A stretch of 64,000 nt of DNA, taken from assembly GCF_014199325.1 (NCBI RefSeq), contig NZ_JACIJJ010000003.1:124001-188000 (forward strand), read 5' to 3'. This document shows, piece by piece, positions 3,858 to 60,844 of this stretch (position 1 is its first letter; the number at the start of each line of letters is the position of its first letter). The notes below the pieces were generated by a model. That model had not been told where the DNA came from. It did not search any database and worked only from the letters and a program-made list of their open reading frames with translations. Origin of the DNA: Sphingomonas yantingensis. GTDB taxonomy: Bacteria; Pseudomonadota; Alphaproteobacteria; Sphingomonadales; Sphingomonadaceae. Position numbers and translations under genes: made by a program.

Positions 3858-4304
3858 ATGACCCCCAAGCATCTCGGCCAGACCAGCGCCCTGCCCGCCA
3901 GCCCCGACGAAGCGGTACTGGATTATGTTCCCAATCCGCGACCCGGGTCCTTGTACTGTGTCCGCTTCGCCGCGCCCGAGTTCACCTCGCTCTGTCCGGT
4001 GACGGCGCAGCCCGATTTCGCCCACCTCGTCATCGACTATGCCCCCGCCGAAACGATCGTCGAATCCAAGTCGCTGAAGCTGTTCCTCGGGAGCTTTCGC
4101 AACCATGCGGCGTTTCATGAGGACTGCACCGTCGGGATCGGCGAGCGGTTGTTCCGCGAGATGAAGCCTGTCTGGCTGCGCATCGGCGGCTACTGGTATC
4201 CGCGCGGCGGCATCCCGATCGACGTGTTCTGGCAATCCGGACCGTCGCCCGACGGGCTGTGGGTGCCAGACCAGGGCGTTGCCGGCTATCGCGGCCGCGG
4301 CTGA
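3858..4304 (+). CDS. queF: NADPH-dependent 7-cyano-7-deazaguanine reductase (unimodular QueF)
   Basis: A 148-residue queuosine biosynthesis enzyme that reduces the nitrile preQ0 to preQ1. Catalytic Cys46 (SLCPVT) forms the thioimide, with Asp53 as the proton donor. The QueF motif ESKSLK is at 69-74, followed by FHED at 86-89. The length matches the short, unimodular YkvM type used by Bacillus and alphaproteobacteria rather than the bimodular E. coli type. It is divergent from the photolyase gene. No other queuosine genes are nearby. Confidence 0.95.
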
Positions 4305-4338
4305 ACGCGCTGAACGGCGGATGAATATCGCTTGTTGC

Positions 4339-4357
4339 GTTGCAGCAATGTTGCAAC
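4339..4357. promoter_or_regulatory. Near-perfect palindrome, candidate operator upstream of the GT4/GH130 operon
   Basis: GTTGCAGCAATGTTGCAAC matches its reverse complement at 16 of 19 positions. It lies in the 130-bp gap between queF and the glycosyltransferase, about 80 bp before the start codon. Symmetric TTGCA-rich sites are typical of LacI/GntR-type regulators, but no regulator is identified. Confidence 0.4.
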
Positions 4358-4434: not shown

Positions 4435-6714
4435 ATGTCGACGCTTGAGGGAGCGAAGGCGCCGCAGATCAGGCATCTGGCGCTCATCGGCAATTATCTG
4501 CCCCGCCAGTGCGGTCTTGCGACGTTCACCACGCATTGTCATCAGGCGATGGTCGCGCGCTACCCCGACCTCATGGTCGATGTGTATGCGATGGACGACC
4601 ATCCCGGCCGCTATGCCTATCCCGACGCGGTGACGGCGACGATCCCGCAGCACGACCTGTCCGCCTATCTGGCGACTGCCCGCCGGATCGAGGTGTCGGG
4701 CGCGCAGGTGCTGTGGGTCCAGCACGAATACGGCATCTTCGGCGGCTCGGCGGGCGATCACCTGCTTTCGCTGCTCGACCGCACTTCGCTGCCCGTCATC
4801 GTCACGCTGCACACGATCCTTGAGCGCCCCAGTGCCGAGGAGCGTCGGGTGATGGAGGCGTTGCTCCGCCGCGCGAGCAAGGTCATGGTCATGGCCGAGA
4901 AGGGCCGCGAGATCCTGACCCGCGTCCACGGCGCGGACGCACGCCGCATCGTCACCATCCCGCACGGCGTGCCCGACCGTGCCTTCCTCGTCCCCGACAG
5001 CATGAAGCCGCGCTTCGGGTGGGAGGGGCGCAAGGTCATCTTCACCTTCGGCCTGCTCGCCCCCAACAAGGGGATCGAGACGATGATCGCGGCGATGCCC
5101 GAGATCGTGAAGGCGGAGCCGCGCGCGCATTACGTGGTGCTGGGCGCCACCCACCCCAACCTCGTCGCGCATGAGGGCGAGGCGTATCGCGAGCGCCTGA
5201 TCGCGCAGGCCGCCGAGCTGGGCGTCGCGGATCATGTCGAACTGATCGACGGCTTCGCCGAGGAGCCCGAGCTGCTCGACTATCTGCAGGCCGCCGACAT
5301 CTATGCGACGCCCTACCACAACCCGGCGCAGATCACCTCGGGCACGCTGAGCTTCGCGGTCGGCATGGGCAAGCCGGTCGTCTCGACCCCCTATGTCCAC
5401 GCTACCGAGATCCTCGGCGACGGTCATGGCATGCTCGTCGATTTCGGCGACGTCGCCGGCTTCGCGCGGGCGATCGGCGGGTTGCTGGCCGACGACGGCG
5501 AGCGGATGGCGCTGGCGACGCGTGCCTATGCCCGCGGGCGCACGATGCTGTGGCCGTGCCTGGCCGAGGGGATCATGAAGGCGGCGGAGCAGATCGTTAC
5601 CGCCCGTCCCGCGCGCATCACCGGCAGCGCGAGCGAGACCGCACCGCTCCGCCCCGACCTCGCCGCGGTCGAGCGGATGAGCGACGCGACGGGCATGCTC
5701 CAGCATTCGATCTATTCGATCCCCGATCGTCGCCACGGCTATTGTATCGACGACAATGCCCGTGCGCTGATCCTGATGTGCCGCATCGATCCGCTCGACG
5801 ACGTGACGCGCGACAAATGGACGAGCATCTACGCTTCGTTCGTCCAGTACGCCTGGAACCCCGACAAGCGCCGCTTCCGCAACTTCATGCGCTTCGACCG
5901 CGTATGGTGCGAGGACGAGGGGTCGGAGGATTCTAACGGCCGCGCGCTCTGGGCGCTCGGCGTCACCGCGACCGAGGCGCGCGAGCAGAAGCATCGCGAC
6001 TGGGCGGCCGCGCTGTTCGACCAGACCGCCAGCCTTGCCTTCGACCTCGGCAGCCCGCGGGCGCAGGCATTCGCGATGCTGGGCGCCGCGGCGATGCGCG
6101 ACGGGTTTCCCGCCCACCCGATCGCGACGCGCATCCTTGAAAGCTTCGGCGAGCAGCTCGTCGCGCTGTGCGAGACGAACCGCCGTCCCGACTGGCAGTG
6201 GTTCGAGATCGTCCTCGCCTATGACAACGCCCGCCTGCCCGAGGCGCTGATCCGTGCGGGGCAGGCCCTCGGCCGGCAGGATTTCGTCGATTGCGGGATC
6301 GAGACGCTCGAATGGATCGTCTCGCGCCAGACCTCGCCCGCCGGCAATTTTCGAGCCGTGGGGACCGAGAGCTTTGGACGCGAATATGCCGAGCCGCTCC
6401 CGTTCGATCAGCAGCCGCTGGAAGCACAGGCGACCGTGGAGGCATGCGCCGCCGCGTTCGAGGCAACCGGGGAGAAGCGCTGGTACGAGGAAGCGATGCG
6501 GGCGTATCGTTGGTATCTCGGCGGCAACGACCTCGATTTGCCGCTGGCGACGGCGCAGGACGGCGGCTGCTTCGACGGGCTTCAGCCCACCGGGCTCAAC
6601 CGCAATCAGGGCGCGGAGTCGATTTTGGCGCTGCAATTGGCCAATTGCGCCATTTCCGGGCTTTCAAAGGCGGCGGCAAATCTGGCAGACCCGCCGCGCA
6701 TCGTCGTCGCTTAG
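4435..6714 (+). CDS. GT4-type glycosyltransferase fused to a six-hairpin-like domain
   Basis: A 759-residue two-part protein. Residues about 10-385 form a GT-B glycosyltransferase (group 1/GT4-like) with the early LIGNYLPRQCGLATFT segment, the HEYGIFGG loop, the inter-domain TFGLLAPNKGIE segment and the donor-site stretch around YHNPAQITSGTLSFAVG. Residues about 400-750 look like an alpha/alpha barrel of the glycosidase-like six-hairpin type, with repeated helices and acidic motifs (CIDDNARAL, EDSNGRALWALG). The nucleotide-sugar donor cannot be read from sequence. The GH130 gene 42 bp downstream suggests a mannose-containing glycan. The protein lacks a signal peptide and is presumably cytosolic or peripheral. 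Confidence 0.8.
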   Translation: MSTLEGAKAPQIRHLALIGNYLPRQCGLATFTTHCHQAMVARYPDLMVDVYAMDDHPGRYAYPDAVTATIPQHDLSAYLATARRIEVSGAQVLWVQHEYGIFGGSAGDHLLSLLDRTSLPVIVTLHTILERPSAEERRVMEALLRRASKVMVMAEKGREILTRVHGADARRIVTIPHGVPDRAFLVPDSMKPRFGWEGRKVIFTFGLLAPNKGIETMIAAMPEIVKAEPRAHYVVLGATHPNLVAHEGEAYRERLIAQAAELGVADHVELIDGFAEEPELLDYLQAADIYATPYHNPAQITSGTLSFAVGMGKPVVSTPYVHATEILGDGHGMLVDFGDVAGFARAIGGLLADDGERMALATRAYARGRTMLWPCLAEGIMKAAEQIVTARPARITGSASETAPLRPDLAAVERMSDATGMLQHSIYSIPDRRHGYCIDDNARALILMCRIDPLDDVTRDKWTSIYASFVQYAWNPDKRRFRNFMRFDRVWCEDEGSEDSNGRALWALGVTATEAREQKHRDWAAALFDQTASLAFDLGSPRAQAFAMLGAAAMRDGFPAHPIATRILESFGEQLVALCETNRRPDWQWFEIVLAYDNARLPEALIRAGQALGRQDFVDCGIETLEWIVSRQTSPAGNFRAVGTESFGREYAEPLPFDQQPLEAQATVEACAAAFEATGEKRWYEEAMRAYRWYLGGNDLDLPLATAQDGGCFDGLQPTGLNRNQGAESILALQLANCAISGLSKAAANLADPPRIVVA

Positions 6715-6755
6715 AACAATCGGGTCGTAGAGCGACGGCCTTACGGGGGGCTTGA

Positions 6756-8042
6756 ATGCTCGAATTGGAAACCCACGCGCTACGGCTGCATGCCGACCCT
6801 TCGCGCGTGGTCGTGCGTCCGTTTCATATCGCGTGGCAGTCGAACGGATCGGCACCCAGCCGGACGGAACGGCTGGTCCATGCCGTCCTGGAAATGTCGC
6901 CGATCGAGGCGCGTCAGCAGCTCAACACCGTGCTCAAGGATTTCGAGGCGCGGCACTGGCAGACGCGGCGCGTCTTCATGACCCGCTACGACCAGATCGA
7001 GGATCTGCTGAAGCTCGACGGCGCGGCGATCTCGGACGAGAAGCGGCAGCTTATCGGCGCCTATTTCTGCCACGAATACAGCTACGCCGCCGCCGCGCTG
7101 ATGAACCCCAGCGCGGTGCCGCATTTCGACCAGTCGGGGATGCCGCCGGGCAGCCTGCGCATCCTCATGTCGCTCCGCGCCGTGGGCGAAGGGCATATCA
7201 GTTCGGTCGCGTTCCGAGAGGGGATCATCACCGACCATAACGAGCTGATTCTTGCGCCCGAGCCCCCCTTCGCCACCGCCGTCGATCGTGAGGGCGCGGA
7301 TGAGCACGGTATCCCCGAGGGCGAGGTGACGGTTCACCGCCACCGCGATTCGACGCTGTCGGGCACGGTCATCTTCCCGATCACCCGCGCGCAGTCGAAC
7401 GGGCTGGAGGACATGCGCCTCGTCCATTTCACGCACGACGACGGCAGCACCGAATGGCTCGGCACCTACACCGCCTATAACGGCTCGGTCATCCAGTCGG
7501 AGATGCTGCGCACGCGCGATTTCCGCGCGTTCGACCTCGTGCCGATGACCGGCTCGGCCGCGCGGAACAAGGGCATGGGCCTGTTCCCGCGCAAGATCGG
7601 CGGCAAGTACATGATGATCGGCCGTCAGGACGGCGAGAACCTGTTCCTGATCCAGTCCGACACGTTAACCCACTGGGACGAGGGCGAGCTGCTGCTCAAG
7701 CCCCATTACCCATGGGAGCTGGTCCAAATCGGCAATTGTGGCCCGCCGATCGAGATCGACGAGGGCTGGCTGCTGCTCACCCACGGCGTCGGCGCGATGC
7801 GTAAATATTCAATTGGCGCGGTGCTGCTCGACAAGGAGGATCCGTCGAGAGTAATCGGCCGCACGCGCGAGCCGTTGCTGGCCGCGGCGGATCAGGACCG
7901 GGAGGGCTATGTCCCCAACGTCGTCTATTCATGCGGCGCGATCCGACACGGCGACCGGCTGTTCATCCCCTATGGCGTCGCCGACAGCTCGGTCGCGTTC
8001 GCGTTCGTGACGATCAGCTCGATGCTGAAGGTGATGGAGTAA
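6756..8042 (+). CDS. GH130 family glycoside phosphorylase/hydrolase (beta-mannoside type)
   Basis: A 428-residue predicted five-bladed beta-propeller of family GH130. Members phosphorolyse or hydrolyse beta-mannosides. The family's catalytic-Asp block appears as SNGLEDMRLV (usual form GxEDPR), and other blade motifs include GTYTAYNG, RNKGMGLFPRKI, GNCGPPIEI and GWLLLTHGVG. The N-terminal 100 residues are an additional helical segment. It is probably co-transcribed with the glycosyltransferase. The pair suggests synthesis and remobilisation of a beta-mannosyl glycan, with the true linkage unknown. Whether it is a phosphorylase or a hydrolase depends on phosphate-binding Arg/His residues that need an alignment. 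Confidence 0.82.
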   Translation: MLELETHALRLHADPSRVVVRPFHIAWQSNGSAPSRTERLVHAVLEMSPIEARQQLNTVLKDFEARHWQTRRVFMTRYDQIEDLLKLDGAAISDEKRQLIGAYFCHEYSYAAAALMNPSAVPHFDQSGMPPGSLRILMSLRAVGEGHISSVAFREGIITDHNELILAPEPPFATAVDREGADEHGIPEGEVTVHRHRDSTLSGTVIFPITRAQSNGLEDMRLVHFTHDDGSTEWLGTYTAYNGSVIQSEMLRTRDFRAFDLVPMTGSAARNKGMGLFPRKIGGKYMMIGRQDGENLFLIQSDTLTHWDEGELLLKPHYPWELVQIGNCGPPIEIDEGWLLLTHGVGAMRKYSIGAVLLDKEDPSRVIGRTREPLLAAADQDREGYVPNVVYSCGAIRHGDRLFIPYGVADSSVAFAFVTISSMLKVME

Positions 8043-8050
8043 GAAGGTAG

Positions 8051-8140
8051 CGGGATCCCGGGTCAAGCCCGGGATGACGGTAATGGTAAGGGATGTGCAC
8101 TCCCCGCAATCGTCACCCCGGACTTGATCCGGGGTCCCGC
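8051..8140. repeat. REP/BIME-like inverted repeat (locus 2)
   Basis: A pair of units with cores CCCGGGTCAAGCCCGGG and CCCCGGACTTGATCCGGGG. The pair order is reversed relative to locus 1, so the TGACG/CGTCA ends face inward. It fills the convergent gap between the GH130 gene and the small membrane protein, and could terminate transcription from both sides. Confidence 0.8.
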
Positions 8141-8156
8141 TTCTTCTTCTAAGCCG

Positions 8157-8351
8157 TCAAAACGGCAGGACCTCCGGCCCGCCGGGAAAGATGAGGTCCT
8201 CGGTCCAGTCGGCCCCGACCAGCATCGTCAGCACGACGAACGCGATCAGCGACAGGTCGAACAGCGCGACTCCTGCCCAGGCGACGAAGGGATGGAACGG
8301 CCCCACGCGGTCGTAACCGTCACGGGTGGTGCGGGCGCGGCGGTGCTGCAT
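8157..8351 (-). CDS. Small single-pass membrane protein, unknown function
   Basis: A 64-residue protein from ATG at 8351; a GTG at 8354 would add one residue. It has a basic N-terminal segment (QHRRARTTRDGYDR), one strongly hydrophobic helix at about residues 22-46 (FVAWAGVALFDLSLIAF followed by VVLTMLVG), and an acidic tail. Its start overlaps the ppdK stop (TGATG arrangement), so translational coupling is likely, which supports it being real. I do not recognise the family. Confidence 0.6.
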   Translation of the reverse strand: MQHRRARTTRDGYDRVGPFHPFVAWAGVALFDLSLIAFVVLTMLVGADWTEDLIFPGGPEVLPF

Positions 8352-11029
8352 CACTTGGCGAGCGCCGCCTGCGCCGCCGCCAGCCGGGCGATCGGCACGC
8401 GGTACGGGCTCGCCGACACGTAATCGAGCCCGACCTTCTCACAGAACGCGATCGAGGCGGGATCGCCGCCATGCTCGCCGCAGATGCCAAGCTTGATGTC
8501 GGGCCGTGTCTTGCGCCCGCGCTCGGCGGCCAGTTCGACCAGCTCGCCGACGCCCTCGACATCGATGCTGACGAACGGATCGCGGGCGTAGATGCCCTTC
8601 TCGACATAGACGCCGAGGAACCGCGCCGCGTCGTCGCGGCTGACGCCCAGCGTCGTCTGGGTGAGGTCGTTGGTCCCGAAGCTGAAGAACTCGCCCACTT
8701 CGGCGATCTCGCCCGCGCGCAGCGCCGCGCGCGGCAGCTCGATCATCGTGCCGACCAGATACTCGATCCGCCGCCCCTTGTCAGCGAACACCGCCTCCGC
8801 CGCCTTGTCGACAACGGCCTTCATCAGTTCCAGCTCCTTGGCCGTGGCGACCAGCGGGATCATCACCTCGGGCACCGGCGCCGCGCCCGACTGCTCCGCG
8901 ACTTCGACCGCCGCCTCGAAGATCGCCCGCGCCTGCATCTCATAGATTTCGGGATAGGTGACGCCCAAGCGGCAGCCGCGATGGCCGAGCATCGGATTAA
9001 ACTCGTGCAGCTCGCCCGCCCGCCGCTTCAGCGCCTCGACCTCCATGCCGGTGGCCTTGGCGACTTCCTCGAACTCGGCATCTTCGTGGGGCAGGAACTC
9101 GTGGAGCGGCGGGTCGAGCAGGCGGATCGTCACCGGCAGGCCCGCCATCACCGCAAAGATCTCGGCGAAGTCGGCGCGCTGTTCGGGCAGCAGCTTTTCG
9201 AGCGCGGCGCGCCGTCCCGCCTCGTCCGACGCCAGGATCATCTGGCGGACCGAGGTAATGCGGCCGGCGTCGAAGAACATGTGCTCGGTGCGGCAAAGGC
9301 CGATGCCCTCCGCCCCGAACTCGCGCGCGGTGCGGCAGTCGGCGGGGGTTTCGGCGTTGGTGCGCACCTTCAGCCGGCGGACCTTGTCGGCCCAGGCCAT
9401 CAGCGTGCCGAAATCGCCGGCCAGCTCGGGTTGCACGGTCGGCACCGCACCAAGCATCACCTCGCCGGTCGAGCCGTCGATCGTCAGCACTTCGCCCGCC
9501 TTCACCTCGCGGTCGCCGACGCGCATCACCCCGTCCTTGCCCTTGATCGAGAGACTCCCCGCGCCGGAGACGCAGGGGCGACCCATGCCGCGCGCGACCA
9601 CCGCCGCGTGGCTGGTCATGCCGCCGCGCGCGGTCAGGATGCCCTTGGCCGCGTGCATGCCGTGAATGTCCTCGGGGCTCGTCTCGACGCGAACGAGGAT
9701 CACGTCCTCGCCCGCCGCCGCCATCTTCTCGGCGGTGTCGGCGTCGAACACGACCTTGCCCGAGGCGGCCCCCGGCGACGCGGGCAACCCCTTGGTCAGG
9801 ACATCGCGCGGCGCATCGGGGTCGAGCGTCGGGTGAAGCAGCTGGTCGAGTGCGGCGGGATCGACGCGGGCCACCGCCTGCTCCTCGGTAATCAGGCCTT
9901 CGCTCGCCATGTCGACCGCGATCTTCAGTGCCGCCTTCGCCGTCCGCTTGCCGCTTCGCGTCTGGAGCATCCACAGCTTGGCGCGCTCGACGGTGAACTC
10001 GATGTCCTGCATGTCGCGGTAATGGCGCTCGAGCGTGTCGAACACGCCCGCCAGTTCGCCGTACACCTCGGGCATCGCCTCTTCCATCGACAGCGGCTTG
10101 GCCCCCGCCGCTTCCCGCGCCGCGCGGGTCAGGTATTGCGGCGTGCGGATGCCCGCGACCACGTCCTCGCCCTGCGCATTGATGAGGAACTCGCCATAAT
10201 AGCCGTTCTCGCCGGTCGAGGGATCGCGGGTGAAGGCGACGCCCGTGGCCGAGGTGTCGCCCATGTTGCCGAACACCATCGCCTGCACGTTGACCGCGGT
10301 GCCCCAATCGCCCGGAATGTCGTTCAGGCGGCGATAGACCTTCGCCCGCTCCGACTGCCACGACCCGAATACCGCGCCGACCGCGCCCCAGAGCTGGTCG
10401 TGCACGTCCTGCGGGAAGGGCTTGTCCCAAAGCTCCTCGACCAGGCCCTTATATTCGGTGACCAGCGCCTTCAGGTCGTCGGCGGTCAGGTCGGTGTCGA
10501 GGAAATAGCCGCGATCCTCCTTGGCAATCTCCAGCGCTTCCTCGAACCGGTCGTGGTCGAGGCCGAGGACCACGTCGGCATACATCTGAATGAAACGGCG
10601 ATAACTGTCCCAGGCGAAGCGCGGATCGTCGGACACGCGCGCCAGCCCCTCTACCGTCTGGTCGTTCAGGCCGAGGTTCAGGACCGTGTCCATCATGCCC
10701 GGCATCGACACGCGCGCGCCCGAGCGGACCGAGACGAGCAGCGGGTTGGCGGGGTCGCCGAACGCCTTGCCCGTCACCTGCTCGATATGCACGATTCCGT
10801 CCGCGACCTCGGCGCGCACGCTGTCGGGAAAGGTCTGGCCCTCCTCGGAATAGCGCGTGCACATCGCGGTCGAGATGGTGAAGCCCGGCGGCACCGGCAG
10901 GCCGATCGAGGCCATTTCGGCGAGGTTCGCGCCCTTGCCGCCCAGCAGGAACTTGTCCCCCTTGCCGCCATCCGACACGCCGCCGCCGAAGCGATAGACA
11001 TATTGCGGTTCGGTGCCCTGGTTCGCCAT
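8351..11029 (-). CDS. ppdK: Pyruvate, phosphate dikinase
   Basis: An 892-residue PPDK, the usual length, interconverting pyruvate+ATP+Pi and PEP+AMP+PPi. The N-terminal ATP-grasp domain starts at about residue 5 (YVYRFGGGVSDG, then LLGGKGANLAEM). The phosphohistidine domain contains GGMTSHAAVVARGMG with the swivelling catalytic His. The C-terminal TIM barrel holds GLCRTEHMFF and ends at GICGEHGGDPASI, which carries the catalytic Cys. ATG at 11029 is chosen over the frame's 11098 start because MANQGTEPQYVYRFGG matches the family N terminus. A perfect palindrome lies 37-51 bp upstream. The role is likely gluconeogenic or anaplerotic. Confidence 0.96.
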   Translation of the reverse strand: MANQGTEPQYVYRFGGGVSDGGKGDKFLLGGKGANLAEMASIGLPVPPGFTISTAMCTRYSEEGQTFPDSVRAEVADGIVHIEQVTGKAFGDPANPLLVSVRSGARVSMPGMMDTVLNLGLNDQTVEGLARVSDDPRFAWDSYRRFIQMYADVVLGLDHDRFEEALEIAKEDRGYFLDTDLTADDLKALVTEYKGLVEELWDKPFPQDVHDQLWGAVGAVFGSWQSERAKVYRRLNDIPGDWGTAVNVQAMVFGNMGDTSATGVAFTRDPSTGENGYYGEFLINAQGEDVVAGIRTPQYLTRAAREAAGAKPLSMEEAMPEVYGELAGVFDTLERHYRDMQDIEFTVERAKLWMLQTRSGKRTAKAALKIAVDMASEGLITEEQAVARVDPAALDQLLHPTLDPDAPRDVLTKGLPASPGAASGKVVFDADTAEKMAAAGEDVILVRVETSPEDIHGMHAAKGILTARGGMTSHAAVVARGMGRPCVSGAGSLSIKGKDGVMRVGDREVKAGEVLTIDGSTGEVMLGAVPTVQPELAGDFGTLMAWADKVRRLKVRTNAETPADCRTAREFGAEGIGLCRTEHMFFDAGRITSVRQMILASDEAGRRAALEKLLPEQRADFAEIFAVMAGLPVTIRLLDPPLHEFLPHEDAEFEEVAKATGMEVEALKRRAGELHEFNPMLGHRGCRLGVTYPEIYEMQARAIFEAAVEVAEQSGAAPVPEVMIPLVATAKELELMKAVVDKAAEAVFADKGRRIEYLVGTMIELPRAALRAGEIAEVGEFFSFGTNDLTQTTLGVSRDDAARFLGVYVEKGIYARDPFVSIDVEGVGELVELAAERGRKTRPDIKLGICGEHGGDPASIAFCEKVGLDYVSASPYRVPIARLAAAQAALAK

Positions 11030-11065
11030 CACGTATCCCCGCCTTCCGGTCTTTGCATAGGTATG

Positions 11066-11080
11066 CGCTGCATTGCAGCG
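11066..11080. promoter_or_regulatory. Perfect 7-1-7 palindrome upstream of ppdK, candidate operator
   Basis: CGCTGCATTGCAGCG is an exact 7-bp inverted repeat around a single T. It lies in the 84-bp gap between ppdK and glyS. It shares the TTGCA/TGCAA character of the palindrome at 4339-4357, which hints at one carbon-metabolism regulator acting on both. No regulator is assigned. Confidence 0.4.
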
Positions 11081-11113
11081 ACTGTGGCCGAAGTCCACTC
11101 CGACTAAAGTTGC

Positions 11114-48889: not shown

Positions 48890-48918
48890 GCGGGATTCCT
48901 TTTCCTGAAATTACTAGT

Positions 48919-49641
48919 CTAAACGTTTGCCAGTTTTCGCATACTGCTTCGAAAGACTACACAATTTCGAGAAATACGGCCAGCACCCTTGCTGTGCTTT
49001 TTACAAAAACGCTCTCGACGGGTCGCTGACTTGTCAACATTCTCATAGGCGTGCTTTGGAGACTTCCCTTCCGACGCCTCAAGAGCAGACATGAAGGCAT
49101 CCCTCAAAGCATTACCATTTAGATAATTGGCCTTAATCGGCTTTCCCGAAAAAGCCGAAACGCACCAAGCTTCTGTCGACTCGATAGCTGGAAAAAAAAC
49201 ATGACGCTTACGATCTGATGATGAGAGAATAGACATCTCGGCGGCGCCAGCGAGAACCTTTTCGACTTCCTGCGCCCTTGCTCTTGGATTACTTGCAGTA
49301 ACGATCGATACACCATATTCTTTCAAAACAAACTTTTTGAAAGAGACGTCCTCTAAAACGTCACTATCTAAATGCACCAAAATTGCATCTAAATGATCCT
49401 CGCCTAAATCGCCACCAAACAAACCGCCGTTGAAGTATTTTTGGATTCGCGTCTGAGCCGTGTAACGTTTGAACCGAGTGAGAACTGATGCCCACCCGCC
49501 AGTAGGCCTAGTCCGATCCATTTCGGGATGTAGCGATCTGAACGTTGCCGATATACCAAGATCTGCCAACGCCACCCCTACAAAATGTTCAATCGCTGGA
49601 TAATCACTGGGCCCTTCGCAAACGACGCCAATCCTCATCAC
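48919..49641 (-). CDS. TOPRIM-like (DUF4276-like) protein, second gene of the low-GC module
   Basis: A 240-residue protein starting with a beta strand and CEGPSDY (Glu9), matching the first TOPRIM acidic motif. It continues with AILVHLDSDV (Asp92, Asp94), the DxD motif. FFPAIESTEAWC (Glu154, Glu157) resembles the acidic motif of DUF4276-type proteins. The C terminus is Lys/Arg-rich. It is probably a metal-dependent nuclease or nucleotide-processing effector. It starts GTG at 49641, overlapping the ATPase stop (GTGA; ATG at 49638 also possible), so the two are coupled. Local G+C is far below the neighbours. The exact family is uncertain. Confidence 0.65.
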   Translation of the reverse strand: MMRIGVVCEGPSDYPAIEHFVGVALADLGISATFRSLHPEMDRTRPTGGWASVLTRFKRYTAQTRIQKYFNGGLFGGDLGEDHLDAILVHLDSDVLEDVSFKKFVLKEYGVSIVTASNPRARAQEVEKVLAGAAEMSILSSSDRKRHVFFPAIESTEAWCVSAFSGKPIKANYLNGNALRDAFMSALEASEGKSPKHAYENVDKSATRRERFCKKHSKGAGRISRNCVVFRSSMRKLANV

Positions 49642-50912
49642 ATTACCCCCAAAGCGCCGGGAATGTCGCCATCAAGCCAAAGCTGGGATAGGTTTCGCCC
49701 TCCCTTAACCGCTTCCCACCTCTCACGAGACATACCCTTCGGCACTTTCAGTCGTGTAGCAGTTGTAAAACCTTTCTCTCCCCGCTTTACAACAAAAACC
49801 CTATTATCATTGTCAAATAGATCAAATGCATCAAGGGCAGTCGGATTATGGCTAGTGAGAAATACCTGCTTAGCCCCTAGCCAGGTCTGATTTTCGCTAG
49901 ATGTCTTACATACTTTGATAATTTGCTCGACGAGGCTTCTCGTTAGTTTTGGGTTAAGGGCATTGTCGACGTTGTCGAATGCAAATACCTTCGGTGCACC
50001 TGGATGGGATAACAATATAGCAGCAAATAAAAGGAAAAGAGTACCTTCGCTGCTATCATAAACTGACAACTGATTTCTTCGAGCGTGCATAAAGCAATCA
50101 ACAAAATATACAATTTCAGTACGATCCGCCATGTCGCGAGAAGTTAACAGAGGCGCCGGCCTATGCGTACCGAACTCAGACGCCCATCCGGGCAATCCAA
50201 CAAGTTGCACGCAATCGTCTATAATCTTTTTGTTGTGCTTATCCAAAAAATGCTCACCGCCTCTTCGGAAACTTCTCCAAGCGCTTAGAAGGCCAGACGC
50301 TGCTTCGGGGAGCCCTTCGCCATGAAGACCTATGGGTGGATTATCAACACGACCAGCTTGACGGCCTCTTAGAAAATCAGGTTGTGGCGTATAAATCGAA
50401 AATCGGCTAAATTCGGAAAACTCAGCAGCAGCTGACTCATCAATATCATACGTAGCCTTGATTTGATCCCAAATACCTCTGTGCTGCTCCAGCCGATGAG
50501 CATGTGAGACACCGGTCGCGCTCGCGCCGCGATTGCTACGCCCAAAGACCTTCTTTCCCCTGATCGACGCTGACTCAGAGAAGAATCTCAGCAGGGGATC
50601 GCCTTCTCGGCTCTGCAAAGTAGCCTTGTAAGTGATCCGGCTACTGAACTTTGCTTCAAGCATGAGCGTTTTAGGCAAGTCCTCGTTTTTGAAGGACGAC
50701 TTCATCAATTCGGGTGGTGTAATTCGCAAGCCTCTCTGGCCGATATCCGAATCCCCCAAGCCTCGGCCTAGGCAAGCAGAGGCCAGACCGATAGCTTCAA
50801 GTAAATTGGACTTTCCGGTTCCATTTCCACCGATAAAAAGATTTACGCGGCCAAACTGCAGCGTTTCTTCACGTACAGTTTTGAATCGCTCAATCGTTAA
50901 TTCAGACAACAT
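49638..50912 (-). CDS. AAA15/OLD-like ABC-type ATPase, first gene of the low-GC module
   Basis: A 424-residue SMC/ABC-like ATPase. Walker A GGNGTGKS is at 28-35, the signature-like DSSEGTLFLL at 286-295, Walker B VFAFD ends at Asp313, and the H-switch is His355 (FLTSH). The residue after the Walker B Asp is Asn314, and the following stretch reads NVDNALNP where the family usually has EPENGLHP. The C-terminal NLSQLWLDGDIPGAL is typical of these ATPases. It precedes a TOPRIM-like gene, as in several anti-phage two-gene systems. It has no transmembrane segments. Confidence 0.8.
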   Translation of the reverse strand: MLSELTIERFKTVREETLQFGRVNLFIGGNGTGKSNLLEAIGLASACLGRGLGDSDIGQRGLRITPPELMKSSFKNEDLPKTLMLEAKFSSRITYKATLQSREGDPLLRFFSESASIRGKKVFGRSNRGASATGVSHAHRLEQHRGIWDQIKATYDIDESAAAEFSEFSRFSIYTPQPDFLRGRQAGRVDNPPIGLHGEGLPEAASGLLSAWRSFRRGGEHFLDKHNKKIIDDCVQLVGLPGWASEFGTHRPAPLLTSRDMADRTEIVYFVDCFMHARRNQLSVYDSSEGTLFLLFAAILLSHPGAPKVFAFDNVDNALNPKLTRSLVEQIIKVCKTSSENQTWLGAKQVFLTSHNPTALDAFDLFDNDNRVFVVKRGEKGFTTATRLKVPKGMSRERWEAVKGGRNLSQLWLDGDIPGALGVM

Positions 50913-51031
50913 TCAGTGTAGAACCTCAGAGAAGAACGAACCGAGAACCTGCGACCTTAGAAAGTATGCGCACAGGTAGCCATGGGATCATCCAAGCCGC
51001 GCATTGCGGTAACATCACACTCTTAACGAAG

Positions 51032-59330: not shown

Positions 59331-59614
59331 TCGATCACCTTGGGAACCGCGAAGAAGCCGTGCTCGGCCTGCGGGGCATTGGCCAGCACCGCCTCGCGCA
59401 CGCCGCCGTCGGTGACGACATCGTCGCGCAGGCGCAGCATGTTGGGGATGACGGCGGTCATCGGCGCGACGGCAGAGGTGTCGACCTCGCCCAGTTGCTC
59501 GATCCAGCCCATGATGTTGTCGAGCTCGGGCGCGATACGCCCGGCCTCCTCATCGGTGATGGCGATGCGGGCGAGCCCCGCGATGCGCTTTACGGTTGCA
59601 GTGTCGACGGCCAT
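59327..59614 (-). CDS. gatC: Asp/Glu-tRNA(Asn/Gln) amidotransferase subunit C
   Basis: A 95-residue Gat[40 protein letters not shown] and [13 protein letters not shown] are the family pattern. ATG at 59614 is preferred over the longer frame. It bridges GatA and GatB, and overlaps gatA by 4 bp. Confidence 0.95.
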
Positions 59615-59743
59615 GCGGGTGCGGCTAGCATCCGCATCCAGCCCCATCAAGCGCCCCCGCGGTTGCAGATCGCGCAAACAAGCGGCATCGAAACCGAATT
59701 GCCGGTCGCCGGTTTATGCTGCATCGCACAATGGAGGCCCAAG

Positions 59744-60844
59744 CTGGCCCGCAAGTTCCTCTATCTGGTCGCCATCCTGATCGTGCTCGCCATCGCCGCC
59801 ATGTTCGCCTACCGCCTGTTCGGCGTGCGGCTGCTCCGCCAGACGATGGTGCCAACCGCGCAGTTCCAGGCGCTGCCAGCAACGCCTGCTGACGCCTATG
59901 CAAAAGCCGATATGTGGATCGCGCGGCCCGACAGGCCGAACAATCCCGCGATGTGGACGCCGCCGGGGGTCGAGGCGAGCAGGAACCCGACCGCCGCGGT
60001 CTTCTTCATCCACCCGACCTCGTACCTCGACCGCGCCGCATGGAACGCGCCGCTCGACAACCGCGACGCCAACGACCGCGCGGCGCTGTTCCTGCGCGGA
60101 CAGGCATCGGCGTTCAACGGTGTCGGCGCGATCTGGGCGCCGCGCTATCGCCAGGCGACGTTCGGCGCCTTCCTGACCAATGTGCAGGCGGCGACGCAGG
60201 CGCTCGACCTCGCTTATGGCGACGTGCTCGCCGCCTTCGACCGGTTCTTGAGCGAAGCGGGCGACCGTCCGATCATTCTCGCCGGGCACAGCCAGGGCGC
60301 GCTTCACCTGTCGCGTCTCCTTAAGGATCGCGTCGCAGGACAGCCGATCGCTAAGCGAATCGTCGCGGCATACGTGGTCGGGTGGCCGATCTCGCGCACC
60401 GCGGACCTGCCTGAAATGGGCCTGCCCGAGTGCCAGCGCGCCGATCAGGTCGGCTGCATCCTGTCGTGGCAGAGCTTCGGCGAGCCCGCCGATCCGTCGC
60501 TGATCCTCGACACGTTCGATGCGACCACCGGGTTCAACGGCACCCGCCGCGCGGGGACGCCGATGGTCTGCACCAACCCGATCACCGGCAACATGGGCGA
60601 TGCCGCCCCGGCGCAGGCCAATCTCGGCACGCTGTTCCCGTCGGCCGACCTCACTTCGGCGACGCTTGAGAAGGGTCGCGTCCCCGCACGGTGCGAGGGC
60701 CGGGGGCTGCTGATGATCGGTGAGGGTCCCGATCTCGGCAACTATGTCCTGCCGGGCAATAACTATCATGTGTTCGACTATAGCCTGTTCTGGGGCAACG
60801 TCCGCGCCGATGCGGAGCGGCGGCTGACGGCGTTCGGCGCGTGA
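59744..60844 (+). CDS. DUF3089 alpha/beta-hydrolase-like membrane protein
   Basis: A 366-residue protein with an N-terminal transmembrane helix (about 5-24) and the DUF3089 domain. Motifs are [40 protein letters not shown] and nucleophile elbow GHSQGAL. No ATG is in frame; CTG at 59744 with GGAGG 6 bp upstream is the best start (an ATG at 59731 is out of frame). It overlaps the ruvX start (GTGA). Probably a lipid or ester hydrolase, specificity unknown. Confidence 0.82.

Follow-up and report, generated by a model that had tools for sequence, protein, structure and literature searches.

In a stretch of 64,000 nucleotides from Sphingomonas yantingensis (contig NZ_JACIJJ010000003.1, positions 124,001 to 188,000; the whole stretch is called the window, and positions are counted from its first letter), two adjacent genes were found to encode a fusion of a GT4-type glycosyltransferase with an (alpha/alpha)6 domain and a long-form GH130 protein. 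This pair is beyond chance: the two genes were adjacent and in the same order in all 80 relatives, the best 80 of 386 from a scan of genome contigs, and a promoter element upstream of them was conserved. The element has the form of a box for PhaR, a regulator that senses polyhydroxybutyrate (PHB). Judging from it, regulation of the pair by PhaR is quite likely, and this is the best supported of the predicted steps. The pair probably makes and reclaims an intracellular glycan that contains mannose, and the PHB store and this glycan may be run together. Our preferred reading as a whole, which could well be right but which we hold with slightly less than even conviction, is that of a PhaR-controlled cytoplasmic mannosyl-glycan module, expressed as one transcription unit and tied to PHB storage.

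Promoter and conservation of the gene pair

The two genes and the elements upstream of them are as follows.

4435..6714, + strand: fusion of a GT4-type glycosyltransferase and an (alpha/alpha)6 domain (open reading frame, ORF, of 759 aa)
6756..8042, + strand: long-form GH130 protein (ORF of 428 aa)
4336..4347, + strand: PhaR-type box TGCGTTGCAGCA, which fits the consensus TGCRNYGCASMA without a mismatch and lies 99 nt before the GT4 start codon
4339..4357, no strand: palindrome with 9-nt arms, 8 of 9 positions paired (89% complementary), and a 1-nt spacer; overlaps the PhaR-type box

The consensus TGCRNYGCASMA is that given for Bradyrhizobium diazoefficiens PhaR in portions of the published work, where it was derived from footprints and a promoter alignment (PMC6201568), and the motif described for Sinorhizobium PhaR is similar in shape (PMC12542648, likewise from portions of the paper). 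We scanned 77 upstream regions of the pair, each of 160 nt (three of the 80 were dropped at contig ends); these regions are related and not independent. The box was exact in 48 of them and within one mismatch in 75, always at -84 to -109; the remaining two had two (L023) and three (L053) mismatches. Among 633 upstream regions of other called genes at the same loci, 8 were exact and 42 within one mismatch. As a positive control, the upstream regions of phasin genes were scanned at 30 loci of 41 genomes in stretches of 286-1045 nt: 29 carried an exact box and all 30 a box within one mismatch, often as paired boxes about 43-52 nt apart, against 0 and 23 of 96 control stretches of the same length. 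The source genome itself encodes PhaR (PF07879, E 4.7e-31) and has phaC beside a phasin gene. A 15-nt form drawn from the promoter of the pair had three exact sites in this genome: this one by construction, one upstream of phasin and a third before a DUF1800 gene. With one mismatch it gave 41 strand-sites, palindromes being counted twice, and the reversed pattern gave 7. A preliminary description of this DNA had suggested regulation from the upstream palindrome and a storage role for the product. Both suggestions gained ground, in that the palindrome overlaps a conserved PhaR-type box and this box is common to the upstream regions of the pair and of phasin genes. A sigma-70 scan returned 0 promoters (0.6 in shuffles), and no hit to GTTGCANNNNNTGCAAC turned up in the window.

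Two further sites were noted. The site upstream of the DUF1800 gene (G000:C1:907555-907569, about 130 nt away) is a possible further PhaR target, and the only other exact match to the PhaR consensus in the window (59717-59731) lies inside an ORF with a DUF3089 domain (59360-60844).

The same description had placed the two genes next to each other on one strand, 42 bp apart; adjacency and strand were confirmed, and the gap is really 41 nt. The pair is flanked by queF (3858-4304, +) upstream and by a convergent gene for pyruvate phosphate dikinase (PPDK; 8351-11098, -) downstream. Because the adjacency is conserved and start and stop codons overlap in plasmid operons of relatives, the two genes probably form one transcription unit. 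Distances of the two proteins were correlated over 12 loci (r = 0.974, shared descent included). Of 101 genomes of the genus, 99 gave a match to the GT4 fusion, with a small number of copies split or carrying stops (e.g. in G444, G461 and G483). A GH130 match at E <= 1e-20 occurred in 31 of 398 genomes of a phylum sample, many of these matches spanning only the shared propeller. We also examined 16 distant or second loci (L113-L128). The fusion directly adjoined a long GH130 gene in nine of them (L114-L119, L124, L125 and L128), the fusion of L115 matching in two pieces. In L120 it was convergent to the long GH130 gene, and in L121 a shorter GT4 homologue lay about 6 kb from GH130. No fusion was seen in the examined stretch of L113, L122, L123, L126 (cut by the contig end) or L127. 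That the short GT4 paralogue of L121 has a HAD-IIB partner was considered and rejected, the neighbour being Bax1-I instead. One record among the loci (L012), titled Bacillus sp. 2B10, encodes GH130 at 86% identity and is probably mislabelled or contaminated. Just 3' of the GH130 gene, at 8048-8142, are two similar GC-rich inverted repeats with 15-nt arms, one of them terminator-like, which resemble a repeated extragenic element.

Two enzymes with altered active sites

Within the two proteins, the following parts were delimited.

4468..5607, + strand: GT-B (GT4-like) domain of the fusion, residues 12-391 (fold search of the model, alignment)
5647..6681, + strand: (alpha/alpha)6 domain of the fusion, residues 405-749 (all-helical in the model; matches 7tem)
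6843..7100, + strand: insertion of helices into the N-terminal part of the GH130 protein, about residues 30-115 (low-confidence stretches in the model, which places the extra helices at about 36-113)

AlphaFold models of the fusion and the GH130 protein were made with sets of 35 and 34 relatives from the 80. In the fusion, residues ~196-366 matched Pfam Glycos_transf_1/Glyco_trans_1_4 (PF00534/PF13692) above the cut-off (E ~4e-18); a Pfam scan gave no match in the C-terminal half, and no signal peptide was seen by eye. The model had a mean predicted local distance difference test score (pLDDT) of 79.3 and a predicted template modelling score (pTM) of 0.52. Its residues 12-391 were closest to sucrose-phosphate synthase (Z 35.9), MshA (35.0) and PimA (33.9), and residues 405-749 matched YPO2471 (7tem; Z 29.2, root-mean-square deviation (rmsd) 3.8, 323 residues aligned, profile E 6e-15), the only match to the C-terminal domain among the matches listed for the full-length fusion. 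The (alpha/alpha)6 domain, whose conserved motifs are DDNAR, WFE, YDN and DG...NxNQGAES, is a remote homologue of YPO2471. The label of a GT4-six-hairpin fusion given in the preliminary description was right, as seen from the Pfam matches, the GT-B fold and the helical C-terminal half of (alpha/alpha)6 type.

EX7E is the donor motif of retaining GT4 enzymes, and GRxxxxKG is likewise a usual motif of the GT4 donor site. All 20 aligned fusion proteins read QX7(Y/F) at the EX7E position (Gln299...Phe307 in the window protein) and have Leu207 at the Arg position of GRxxxxKG; Lys212 of that motif, His126 and the GT-B fold are retained. Because both the EX7E motif and this Arg are replaced throughout, the protein is classed as GT4-like, and its transferase activity of the GT4 type is only putative.

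The second protein is a GH130 protein, as had been proposed, by both profile and fold. Its residues 205-428 matched Glyco_hydro_130 (E 2e-32, 112.8 bits against a curated cut-off of 26), and its model, with a mean pLDDT of only 67.6, matched GH130 enzymes over the full length, the closest being the Listeria beta-1,2-mannobiose phosphorylase (Z 27.4, rmsd 3.0, 281 residues aligned). The top 21 rows of the fold search with this five-bladed propeller were all GH130 entries (Z 27.4-22.3). Six residues (E218, D219, K272, R290, Q324 and H343) were invariant in 18 of 18 aligned long-form proteins, including the catalytic Glu-Asp of GH130_NC type (E218-D219). In the sections of the literature consulted, the GH130_NC group is recognised by an adjacent Glu-Asp, and beta-1,2-mannoside specificity is ascribed to a Lys (Lys199 of BT3780) (PMC4599007, PMC4264767). 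K272 aligned with the Lys of the Asn-Lys (NK) motif of Teth514_1788, Teth514_1789, Lin0857 and UhgbMS, which are linked to beta-1,2-mannosides, and TM1225 has NR here; we infer that K272 is equivalent to Lys199. The positions of R290, Q324 and H343 are those which we take to bind phosphate in GH130 phosphorylases. Two of these three basic positions, R290 and H343, are kept in all 18 proteins, and the third is Gln324, where six aligned solved chains of five enzymes (9fj8, 7fip, 5b0p, 9eqq, 9erg and 1vkd) carry Lys or Arg. Both enzymes are thus atypical at their active sites.

These substitutions also bear on an alternative in which synthesis falls to the GH130 protein, dependent on mannose 1-phosphate or GDP-mannose like GT108 of Leishmania, while the GT4 domain has ceased to be an ordinary nucleotide-sugar transferase and serves for processing or as a scaffold. 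Gln324 for Lys/Arg, QX7(Y/F) for EX7E and Leu for Arg would all fit this arrangement, and UhgbMS, a 'mannoside synthase', was among the best fold matches (Z 26.9). On the other hand, the GT4 domain retains K212, H126 and its fold, and GT108 lies far below the GH130 enzymes: Leishmania MPT-2 (6q4y) ranked 40th with Z 18.0 and 13% identity, and membership in GT108 was rejected. We consider this alternative unlikely.

Mannose genes, neighbours and the proposed module

Related operons place the pair beside genes for GDP-mannose. Of 53 plasmid records that matched, 14 were examined. Three plasmids have the order manC - manA - GT4 fusion - GH130 - phosphomannomutase, with near-identical neighbours that may represent one event, and in three further ones manC precedes the two genes. 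One plasmid has no mannose gene beside the pair, and another has an AGE-family epimerase gene downstream. In the chromosomal set of distant loci, a manA-like gene lies upstream of the pair in L116, L117 and L119 and downstream in L114, in every case below the curated cut-off. The modules of Ilyobacter, L124 and L125 add a second, short GH130, those of Ilyobacter and L125 also a short GT4, and in L125 and L126 a short GT4 fused to a mannose-phosphate-isomerase cupin adjoins GH130 genes. The source genome encodes a ManC above the cut-off, a weak ManA-like protein and a second locus (L113:8096-11783, on contig C1) with the order GH130 - GH13 - short GT4, in which the short GT4 keeps GRxxxxKG and EX7E by eye. 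The GDP-mannose genes of related operons support membership of the pair in mannose metabolism, and the link to mannose made at the outset was borne out by manC, manA and phosphomannomutase. Three side observations concern these paralogues: the short GH130 of L113 shows the NK motif and the Arg/His positions (by eye), the GH13-GT4 pair of L113 recurs in L117 near the GT4 fusion-GH130 pair, and on sphingomonad plasmids long GH130 paralogues without the fusion lie near copper-resistance genes (L134, L172 and L135).

In the window, the upstream neighbours are genes for a Cys/Met pyridoxal-phosphate enzyme, a rhodanese, a photolyase-related protein and queF; downstream are PPDK, glyS, a histidine kinase and a phosphate-type binding protein and permease. 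While queF is present in 77 of the 80 relatives, PPDK is present in 2, and a convergent gene of the OPT transporter family lies downstream in 52 (two of which were scanned, L019:3224-5203 and L064:9333-11360). Altogether 13 gene families, 11 of them annotated, were called in at least 20 of the 80 loci, including HerA-like, HtrA-like and Band_7 families downstream, and the idea that the pair stands alone was rejected on this count. Elsewhere in the window, a stretch of 47.9% GC (48890-51031; about 68% for the window) holds two overlapping minus-strand ORFs, one for an AAA_21 ATPase (49638-50912), the other for a partner of 240 aa with no Pfam match (48919-49641), and looks like an acquired defence-type pair.

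Three other explanations were weighed against this context. Plain salvage, in which GH130 degrades imported beta-mannosides, has been proposed for Thermoanaerobacter, where in the portion of the literature consulted the same enzyme family occurs with GT4 and a mannose-1-phosphate guanylyltransferase, and in relatives an OPT gene lies downstream of the pair. The OPT carriers are annotated as peptide transporters, their gene is convergent and not co-transcribed, and the window has PPDK in its place; the annotated window neighbours, which are part of the neighbour families, include no sugar export or import gene, TonB receptor or mannanase, and GH130 adjoins the fusion in every relative. We regard salvage as improbable. 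A surface role, with the pair making or recycling a mannosyl precursor of an envelope polysaccharide or exopolysaccharide and co-regulated with PHB like rhizobial exo genes, gains from reports, seen in portions, of PhaR sites and control at exo genes of S. meliloti and at an exoZ-containing operon of B. diazoefficiens (PMC6201568, PMC12542648); no flippase, polymerase or export gene stood among the annotated window neighbours, and this role too seems unlikely. A small mannosyl disaccharide, made and phosphorolysed as a compatible solute for stress tolerance, would agree with the plasmid homologues, which lie near GroEL (manC-manA plasmids) or DnaK/GrpE (manC plasmids), some of the latter type also carrying genes for Hsp20, universal stress protein, Dps and a HAD-IIB hydrolase. 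No such genes were found among the annotated neighbours of the chromosomal pair, however, and its promoter box is of the phasin type, so that we rate the solute as rather improbable. The sole support for the 'stress glycan' of the preliminary description is these stress genes near some plasmid homologues.

In the preferred reading, the module would be tied to PHB storage. With carbon in excess, PHB would form and PhaR would be titrated off the box, allowing the pair to be expressed. GDP-mannose, mannose 1-phosphate or both would supply the mannose. A mannosyl chain would be started or built by the GT4-(alpha/alpha)6 protein, whose helical domain would bind or trim that chain. GH130 would reversibly add and remove beta-mannosyl ends, most likely beta-1,2, returning mannose 1-phosphate, for which phosphomannomutase and mannose-6-phosphate isomerase would provide the way back into metabolism. 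The resulting glycan would correspond to glycogen with mannose as its sugar, like the mannogen of Leishmania, and would be run beside PHB. A mannose glycan as the product appears reasonably likely, and its beta-1,2 linkage is plausible but somewhat doubtful.

Several results weigh against this module. The upstream regions of the pair are related, as stated, and the boxes of the source genome's own phasin gene are one mismatch off the consensus, the sole non-exact case of 30. No box within one mismatch was found upstream of its phaR (L176), no exact box in L164, which holds its second phasin-family gene, and none at the second GH130 locus or upstream of PPDK. An exact box does lie 39 nt upstream of its manA-like gene, but over 30 loci, drawn from 61 genomes that had a match, this box occurred only here and in the nearest relative (exact in 1 of 30, within one mismatch in 2 of 30; controls, 5 and 32 of 564), and a conserved place for manA in the regulon was rejected. 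Among 19 upstream regions of distant loci, only one carried a box (L114; L124, at a contig edge, was left out), and therefore PhaR control would be a feature of Sphingomonadaceae at most. In 5 of the 14 plasmid records the long GH130 has no adjoining GT4 fusion. The GT4 domain lacks the EX7E donor motif in all aligned proteins, and GH130 carries Gln324 in all of its own. Finally, GT4 enzymes are retaining, as is stated for the GT4 phosphorylases, and a retaining GT4 acting on GDP-alpha-mannose would give alpha links, which GH130 does not cut. GH130 phosphorylases, according to the part of the source consulted, are inverting and convert beta-mannosides to alpha-mannose 1-phosphate (PMC8950772). 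The simple scheme proposed earlier, in which GT4 makes and GH130 recovers one beta-mannosyl glycan, therefore fails on this conflict of alpha and beta, with the replaced donor motif and Gln324 also against it; it is rescued only if GH130 also elongates the chain or the GT4 unit works unusually.

Comparison with known systems

Although almost every sampled genome of the genus has a match to the GT4 fusion, our searches of the open-licence literature showed no paper on the pair. Among the titles listed, none dealt with this fusion, a GH130 subtype with Gln324 or a PhaR-type promoter for such a pair. Word searches of the main text gave no 'glycosidase' in two PhaR papers (PMC6201568, PMC12542648), no 'glycosyl' in the former and no 'GH130' or 'glycoside hydrolase' in the latter; the glycosyltransferases mentioned in the parts of the rhizobial PhaR literature consulted are the wge genes. 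Sphingomonas is a common genus of soil and plants, and if PhaR control holds, PHB content would set how much of the mannose glycan is made, which would link two carbon stores in a way that can be put to the test. With their altered active sites, the two enzymes look like new subtypes.

Clusters of GT4, GH130 and GDP-mannose genes are already known. In Thermoanaerobacter, Teth514_1786-1789 comprise, in the account consulted in part, a GT4, a mannose-1-phosphate guanylyltransferase and two GH130 beta-1,2-mannoside phosphorylases, for which salvage was proposed. Common to both systems are GT4, GH130 and GDP-mannose synthesis (here in the operons of relatives), the GH130_NC Glu-Asp and the NK Lys. 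The ABC transporter and GH5 occur only in Thermoanaerobacter, whereas the GT4-(alpha/alpha)6 fusion, the long GH130 with Gln324, the PhaR-type promoter and the lack of a visible sugar transporter belong only to the Sphingomonas pair; its enzyme subtypes and promoter look new. YPO2471 of Yersinia pestis is a stand-alone 'putative exported protein', whereas its Sphingomonas counterpart is the C-terminal domain of a fusion, in which the WFE motif has Glu591 at a position where YPO2471 has Asn. As in the rhizobial PhaR/AniA regulon, an exact TGCRNYGCASMA box is present and phasin upstream regions of the genus carry the box, binding here being predicted. In Leishmania, a beta-1,2-mannan carbon store (mannogen) is turned over by phosphorylases of family GT108, as described in portions of the source (PMC8950772). 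The Sphingomonas pair would share with it a beta-mannan reserve with phosphorylase turnover, here only proposed, and a GH130-like fold, but its protein, unlike GT108, is GH130 by both sequence and fold (Z 27 against Z 18). That Sphingomonas holds a second carbon store in the form of a bacterial mannogen, a beta-mannan made and recovered by the long GH130 and a GT4-(alpha/alpha)6 enzyme of new mechanism and switched on by PHB granules through PhaR, is an unlikely but conceivable extension of this likeness.

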